This document shows, in pieces, positions 24,958 through 25,965 of a stretch of DNA of 64,000 nt. Below the pieces are notes generated by a model that was not told where the DNA came from, did no database searches, and saw only the letters and a program-made list of their open reading frames with translations. A program made the translations under genes and the position numbers. Position 1 is the first letter of the stretch; every line of letters begins with the position of its first letter. The stretch comes from Psychromonas sp. CNPT3 (lineage in GTDB: Bacteria > Pseudomonadota > Gammaproteobacteria > Enterobacterales > Psychromonadaceae): positions 2,251,883 to 2,315,882 of the forward strand of contig NC_020802.1 of NCBI RefSeq assembly GCF_000153405.2. The letters run 5' to 3'.

Positions 24958-25240
24958 GCTATTTCCTTTTCATTGTTATATTTGTAAGAAACCTTTTAAA
25001 TCCTGTTTCTTATTTTACACACCTTATTAACATTTATTCGACATGTCACTGAATAGTAATTAAAAAAGTGATTTATCGCGAATTTTAATTACTCTAAATA
25101 CGCACTTCGTTTTATAAAAAATAACGCATTATGTTAATCAAGTATGGTTTTTGAAAAATAGATGCCCAAGCAATAGCATAATGAGATAAATAGAATATTA
25201 TTATGCTATTGATTTATTTATTATTAACACAGGGGCCTCC

Positions 25241-25921
25241 ATGGCAAAAACAAAAACGGTAACGACTGATGATGTGTTACTTCTTTTATGTAATTCAGTT
25301 AAATCAGTTCTGGGCAAAGCCACAAACCATCCCATTCACTATTCTTCAATGGTTCAAAAAATCAATAAAACGGGTTTAAAACCAGATATTGGTTGTTTCG
25401 TTCTTTTTGATGGGGGGTTTTCAGGTTTAGTGATCCTTAACTTTAGCGCAGCCTCCGCTTTAGAGATCTATCAAAATTATATGCTACATATGGGGATCCC
25501 AGAAAATGAGCTTGCTCAATCGCACACATCTGATGAAGTCAGTGATGTGATGGGTGAGTTGATGAACCAAATGATAGGTTATTTCACAAGTGTTATTGCT
25601 CAGGAGATGCAAACCTCTATCACCCAAAACCAGCCAAAAATGCTCACCATTAACAAACAAGTTCAACTCTCAATTGATACTAATCTAGATAGACCACAAG
25701 CACGTAGAGTGACTTTTACAACAGAAAAAAATAATATTTTCTATCTTGAAATGGCCATGGATAAAACCGAATTTATTAAGTTGCCAAATTTTGAGCGACG
25801 TGAAAAGTTTGATGCTGATAGTATTATTGATGCAGAAAACAATAAAAAAGATGCAGAGCCAACACCTGAAGTAGTAATGGATTCTACTGAACAAGATCTA
25901 CTCGATGAATTAGGTTTGTAA
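25241..25921 (+). CDS. DUF3334 protein, predicted CheX-like phosphatase
   Basis: A 226-residue soluble protein of the DUF3334 family found in Vibrionales and Alteromonadales; no function is assigned to the family as far as I know. I see the CheC/CheX/FliY phosphatase consensus [DS]-x3-E-x2-N-x22-P with exact spacing: Asp102, Glu106, Asn109, Pro132, inside a long amphipathic helix DVMGELMNQMIGYF. A charged linker (about 190-213) leads to a C-terminal EQDLLDELGL, much like the CheY-binding end of CheZ (DDLLDSLGF). The inference is a CheX-fold protein that binds and dephosphorylates a receiver domain. It is monocistronic, with a terminator after it. The fold and activity are inference; the motifs are seen. 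Confidence 0.8.
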   Translation: MAKTKTVTTDDVLLLLCNSVKSVLGKATNHPIHYSSMVQKINKTGLKPDIGCFVLFDGGFSGLVILNFSAASALEIYQNYMLHMGIPENELAQSHTSDEVSDVMGELMNQMIGYFTSVIAQEMQTSITQNQPKMLTINKQVQLSIDTNLDRPQARRVTFTTEKNNIFYLEMAMDKTEFIKLPNFERREKFDADSIIDAENNKKDAEPTPEVVMDSTEQDLLDELGL

Positions 25922-25929
25922 ATACGAGT

Positions 25930-25965
25930 TCCAGCATTGCATTTTAAATGCTGGAGTTTCCTTTT
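25930..25965 (+). terminator. Probable terminator of DUF3334 gene
   Basis: CCAGCATT and AATGCTGG form a stem around an internal AT-rich loop, followed by a broken T-run (TTTCCTTTTT). Confidence 0.6.

Follow-up and report, generated by a model that had tools for sequence, protein, structure and literature searches.

The window analyzed here, a stretch of 64,000 nucleotides from the genome of Psychromonas sp. CNPT3 (contig NC_020802.1), harbors on its forward strand a gene encoding a 226 aa protein of the DUF3334 family, whose nearest named relatives are proteins of Psychromonas with 72-77% identity. The features recognized along this gene are listed below with window coordinates and, in brackets, the evidence for each.

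25231..25235, + strand: AGGGG, probable ribosome-binding site, 5 nt ahead of the ATG (sequence inspection)
25241..25921, + strand: DUF3334 protein, 226 aa, consisting of a predicted CheX-fold domain, a linker and a CheZ-like C-terminal tail (ORF, Pfam)
25265..25780, + strand: CheX-like fold, residues ~9-180 (AlphaFold model, Foldseek)
25544..25567, + strand: D102-x3-E106-x2-N109, proposed catalytic signature, in helix 97-123 (conservation, hhalign)
25556-25558 and 25565-25567, + strand: codons of E106 and N109, within the proposed catalytic signature
25634..25636, + strand: P132 of the x22-P signature (kept in 132/132 sequences)
25781..25888, + strand: variable linker, residues 181-216 (right-anchored alignment)
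25889..25918, + strand: C-terminal tail EQDLLDELGL, proposed CheY-docking peptide (sequence, model, alignment)
25926..25959, + strand: terminator-like hairpin immediately 3' of the DUF3334 stop codon (consensus match only)

The flanking genes to which Pfam gives a name encode a ferritin, a Rieske protein, cytochromes b and c1, ribosomal protein S9, an AFG1-type ATPase and a GST, and all of them lie on the opposite strand. Because of this orientation, and because a hairpin that resembles a terminator (by consensus match only) directly follows the stop codon, the DUF3334 gene is probably transcribed alone, as a monocistronic unit. In genome G773 (locus L169) DUF3334 is present as two tandem copies, with tails DDLLDSLGI and DALLSSLGI.

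A Pfam scan of the window protein returned PF11813 (DUF3334; E 2e-116), a match to CheX (PF13690; 7.3e-09, 36 bits versus a cut-off of 27, residues 51-127) and a sub-threshold match to CheC, which belongs with CheX to clan CL0355 according to the part of the source available (PMC10542144). The same scan found no FliN-like (SpoA) domain and, up to E 10, no match to the CheZ profile PF04344, and a flagellar switch protein model of NCBIfam matched far under its cut-off. A template-free AlphaFold model made with 42 related sequences was of moderate confidence (pLDDT 69, pTM 0.63), with values per ten residues mostly of 60-91 over the first two-thirds, a gap in confidence at residues 136-150 (pLDDT <50) and low values in the linker and tail. 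The modelled elements are helix 9-28, strands 33-68, helices 70-83 and 97-123, and strands 133-180, the tail appearing as a short helix of low confidence (residues 216-223, pLDDT ~50). When this model was compared with the PDB by Foldseek, 32 matches were obtained at E<=0.001, and 32/32 were CheX, CheC-like, FliY (4hyn) or flagellar-switch (FliM-containing) entries, the matched chain of multi-chain entries having been taken from the entry titles. The best matches were the CheX structures 1squ, 3hm4 and 1xko, with 1squ_B at the top (1.2e-10), and the solved CheX 1xko_A gave a TM of 0.85 by target length.

Sequence comparisons with CheX gave fainter signals. An alignment of CheX from 13 genomes placed, by hhalign, the CheX E-x2-N on E106-x2-N109, a weak pairwise match (E 0.0019, probability only 14.5%). 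When the PDB was searched with the DUF3334 profile, CheX was not recovered and the only match, to PNPase, was doubtful; a single-sequence search with the window protein reached the CheC-like 3h2d at E 0.35. The link to CheX is drawn from the Pfam model, the predicted fold and the weak pairwise profile alignment. The CheX-like fold that a preliminary description of this DNA had proposed is supported by the predicted model. As any domain scan would reveal the CheX match, the novelty does not lie in the fold assignment by itself.

The preliminary description had also read a CheC/CheX/FliY signature, [DS]-x3-E-x2-N-x22-P, from residues D102, E106, N109 and P132. These residues do occupy those positions, and the sole match to the pattern in the protein starts at residue 102. 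To define the family, matches below 60 bits were dropped, and merging of identical C-terminal parts reduced the 145 matches of at least 60 bits to 132 distinct sequences, among them the window protein. Across this set N109 and P132 are kept in 132/132 sequences and E106 is Glu in 131/132, the one gap belonging to a fragment (L085), so that the expected conservation of the Glu/Asn pair was found. Position 102 is looser than the [DS] of the consensus, being D in 79 sequences, N in 51, G in 1 and a gap in 1. The N-terminal stretch TTxDIL is also conserved. In CheC, CheX and FliY an acidic side chain points to the receiver lysine and the Asn lies close to the phospho-aspartate, as stated in the accessible part of PMC3035606. 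The features of this group found in DUF3334 are the predicted CheX fold, the match to a curated CheX profile and the family-wide E-x2-N, and from sequence and model together we infer that the protein may be active as a phosphatase.

The translation ends in EQDLLDELGL, as had been reported, and conservation of this tail across the family was likewise found: a strict form, [DE]LLxxLG[ILMF], is present in 108/132 sequences and a wider one, [LFMI][LFM]xxL[GD][ILMFV], in 123/132. The nine sequences without the wide tail comprise eight from family f240 and L097 (G639), and two that were counted as loose-tailed, L084 and L085, are degenerate (AFL[DE]DLDI), L085 coming from a broken gene. In a right-anchored analysis of 32 representatives (9 of 41 were left out as tail-less or fragments) positions -8 to -1 carried 2.7-4.3 bits of information versus 0.6-1.6 bits at positions -40 to -10. 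The linker, residues 181-216, is unconserved, mostly with ~1 bit per position, apart from a small acidic patch near D193 that is conserved and reads PDxIL in many relatives. A conserved tail after a variable linker is what would be expected of a short docking peptide tethered flexibly to its domain.

In the 3.05-Mb genome of the window, a degenerate nucleotide pattern encoding the tail and a following stop codon occurs 5 times, versus 2 times for a reversed-pattern control. The only proteins of this genome ending in [DE]LLxxLG are DUF3334 (DLLDELGL) and CheZ (DLLSSLGF); the remaining matches are one long frame ending in KLLLDLGL and two in open frames of <40 codons. The idea that the tails of DUF3334 and CheZ from one genome covary was considered and not supported, the CheZ tails being almost invariant. 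The CheA of the window's genome (L184:9685-11829; G000:C1 ~2471684-2473828) carries in its linker four tail-like repeats, read by eye; DEFESLLDELHG is one example, and their general form is [DE]F[DE]x[LM]L[DN]ELH[GA]. Similar repeats, 1-3 each, are found in CheA of G685, G818, G701, G729 and G872. No Pfam P2 domain was detected in this CheA at E 1e-5, which is weak evidence because P2 domains are often missed by HMMER, as noted in the part of PMC10542144 at hand. These repeats, which resemble the tails of CheZ and DUF3334, may be CheY-docking peptides, and several CheY partners may use this tail-like motif.

The absence of any hint of chemotaxis among the neighbors, remarked on in the preliminary description for the window, extends across lineages: no conserved chemotaxis neighbor of DUF3334 was found across the loci compared, and as the flanking genes vary between lineages, gene neighborhood was rejected as evidence for a partner. 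In G232 cheZ is followed ~2.5 kb downstream by DUF3334 in the same orientation, and a gene for a T2SS/T4P-type ATPase lies between them; this single case among many genomes could be due to chance. At five Photobacterium loci (L013, L014, L016, L017 and L076) a receiver protein with a C-terminal half that looks CheC-like by eye is encoded on the opposite strand ~1 kb upstream of DUF3334, and a chemoreceptor-like gene lies a few kb away. A flagellar sigma-28 promoter upstream of DUF3334 found no general support. Compared with the sigma-28 consensus, 77/81 upstream regions had at least 3 mismatches at best (4 in the window), and the 81 regions as a whole fitted no better than shuffles of two-base blocks. 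The closer fits were L010 and L079 (2 mismatches), L008 (1 mismatch, 188 bases before the start) and L076 (perfect, 117 bases before the start); as no shuffle reached 0 or 1 mismatch, the promoters of L076 and L008 may be real in their lineages.

The presence of DUF3334 and CheZ was scored in a sample of 217 genomes of the order: both were present in 81, DUF3334 without CheZ in 1, CheZ without DUF3334 in 69, and neither in 66. CheZ was thus found in 81/82 genomes with DUF3334 versus 69/135 without it, and 69/150 CheZ genomes had no DUF3334. A Fisher test of this association (p 2e-16) takes no account of ancestry and adds no independent evidence, the co-occurrence being confounded by descent. 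Within the genus of the window (15 genomes, its own included) 10 genomes have both proteins, 2 have CheZ alone (G689 and G706, both also with CheA) and 3 have neither (G513, G721 and G813, also without CheA). Outside the order there were seven carriers of DUF3334, six of them with CheZ. In the seventh, G317, a 2.3-Mb genome, DUF3334 is in pieces with stop codons (L085/L086) and no CheZ was found, so that the two genes may possibly have decayed together.

In family f240, among 56 genomes 38 have both, 8 have DUF3334 without CheZ, 2 have CheZ without DUF3334 and 8 have neither. Of the eight CheZ-less carriers, G858 (59%) and G861 (87%) are assemblies of lower completeness. The remaining six (G685, G869, G870, G871, G872 and G873; 74-99% complete) come from two genera, and in all six a tailed DUF3334 is the only match to PF13690, the one profile of the CheC/CheX kind used in this search. 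CheA is present in 5/6 of them, none having been found in G871. In 5/5 of the CheZ-less carriers read, the end of cheY is separated from the cheA open frame by 69-100 bp with no cheZ between, whereas in the controls (G729, G874 and the window's genome) cheZ lies between cheY and cheA, with gaps of 738-1280 bp. The che locus of G685 reads, by Pfam, FlhA-, FlhF-type GTPase, ParA-type, sigma factor, receiver, CheA, CheB and MotA.

The C-terminus was read in 34 of the 46 f240 genomes with DUF3334; the matches in the other 12 end by profile position 203 of 226. Nine of the 34 have the tail, namely the six CheZ-less carriers together with G716, G729 and G874, which have CheZ, and 25 do not; among the tail-less genomes all except G858 have CheZ (24/25). 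In a tree of 49 CheX domains, rooted by hand and without support values, the CheZ-less carriers form one clade whose nearest relatives, G716, G729 and G874, have both CheZ and DUF3334, and the tail-less DUF3334 of f240 fall in a separate clade. As the loss of CheZ and the loss of the tail each lie within one clade, each was probably a single event, so that the exchange between CheZ and DUF3334 in f240 does not amount to many independent events. Tail-less DUF3334 persists in one f240 clade and in G639. Six further f240 genomes (G818, G701, G850, G851, G852 and G833, the last 81% complete and with cheA at a contig end) have CheA and neither CheZ nor DUF3334, so chemotaxis can probably manage without both. 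Adjacency of cheY and cheA without cheZ was also observed in G818, G701 and G850 (L266, L267 and L268), in which neither CheZ nor DUF3334 was found.

We consider it probable that DUF3334 is a CheC/CheX/FliY-type phosphatase of flagellar CheY-P, in which CheX catalysis is combined with CheZ-style docking. The combination of a CheX catalytic fold with a CheZ-like docking peptide, already suggested in the preliminary description, draws support from the predicted fold, the conserved Glu106 and Asn109, and the conserved tail. The non-flagellar target which that description had guessed at from the neighbors fares less well: both the joint occurrence of DUF3334 with CheZ and CheA and its retention in genomes without CheZ speak for the CheY of chemotaxis.

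We infer tail binding, docking face and catalysis as follows. The C-terminal peptide D-L-L-x-x-L-G-[ILM] would dock, in the manner of the CheZ tail, on the alpha4-beta5-alpha5 face of CheY-P, and the flexible linker would let the CheX domain approach the phospho-aspartate; there Glu106 would extend to the active-site lysine of CheY, and Asn109 would orient the attacking water. If the binding mode of CheX differs from that of CheZ, as Pazy reportedly described for CheX and CheY in 2010, tail and CheX domain could act together on one CheY. One face of CheY is common to CheZ and FliM, according to the portion of PMC3774744 available. DUF3334 would speed signal termination alongside CheZ in most hosts and would substitute for CheZ in one lineage.

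It is unlikely that the phosphatase serves another response regulator, such as a paralogue of CheY or a receiver with no part in flagellar chemotaxis, with a tail that fits the equivalent face of that receiver. The genes beside DUF3334 in the window, unrelated to chemotaxis, and the receiver/CheC-like protein upstream of it in Photobacterium would suit such a target, and a stand-alone CheX of ~150 aa is also found in 12/30 DUF3334 genomes searched, so that DUF3334 may have a separate target there; nevertheless, DUF3334 tracks CheZ and, where tested, CheA, it is the only PF13690 match in genomes that keep cheY-cheA and have lost cheZ, and its tail resembles that of CheZ in the same genome.

Slightly less probable still is a non-enzymatic protein that would act through its tail as a CheY-P buffer, a competitor or a localization factor, after the fashion of FliM, which joins a CheX-like middle domain to a CheY-binding peptide and is not catalytic. 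FliM-containing entries are indeed among the fold matches and the tail is the more specific feature, but a scaffold would have no need of the essentially invariant Glu106 and Asn109, and one clade has lost the tail and kept this pair. A tail that serves in sorting or degradation, has nothing to do with CheY and resembles CheZ by coincidence seems very improbable: the motif is short, its last residue is mostly Ile, Leu or Met versus Phe in the CheZ tails read, and its position -5 differs from that of same-genome CheZ in family f110, but the likeness spans eight residues with an acidic start, is restricted in the window's genome to DUF3334 and CheZ, and sits on a protein with the predicted fold of a CheY phosphatase.

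As a phosphatase of CheY-P, DUF3334 (PF11813) would share features with several known systems. It is a family separate from CheX (PF13690; Thermotoga 1xko, Borrelia 3hzh, Vibrio vulnificus 6vpw), which it resembles in fold, in the E-x2-N pair and in the Pro at +22; the stand-alone CheX of the window's genome (~154 aa) ends without a CheZ-like tail, whereas DUF3334 adds linker and tail. With CheZ (PF04344) it has in common the C-terminal peptide (DLLDELGL versus DLLSSLGF in the same genome, a likeness of sequence only) and the proposed substrate, CheY-P. The fold of CheZ is a helical bundle; that predicted for DUF3334, which has no PF04344 match, is CheX. The nearest precedent for the architecture is FliY of the Bacillus and Thermotoga switch, with a CheX-type phosphatase domain and a CheY-binding peptide in one chain. 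FliY carries its peptide at the N-terminus and has a downstream FliN-like domain, whereas in DUF3334 the peptide is C-terminal and no FliN-like Pfam match is found. FliY is the CheY phosphatase of B. subtilis (PMC340952, from the part available), and CheZ catalysis proceeds via a Gln, compared with the Asn proposed for DUF3334 (PMC3035606, likewise in part).

No paper was found under the name DUF3334, and a literature search on CheX with CheZ turned up, in the portions of the sources available, no description of a CheX fold with a conserved CheZ-like tail or of its exchange with CheZ. The usual view treats CheZ and CheX/CheC as unrelated alternatives for switching CheY off. Most chemotaxis systems use one or the other, according to the accessible part of PMC10542144. 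With rather less assurance than for the phosphatase itself, we tentatively propose that DUF3334 may represent a third architecture of chemotaxis phosphatase, a CheX domain bearing a convergent CheZ-like tail, which would work beside CheZ in most hosts and be the sole CheY-P phosphatase in one lineage where cheZ was deleted from the che operon, while another lineage of the family kept CheZ and the tail decayed. Most hosts have CheZ, and many (12/30 searched) a stand-alone CheX as well, which raises the question why as many as three phosphatases should be retained. DUF3334 would also offer a natural replacement of CheZ that can be put to the test, and this reading gives the family a testable function.
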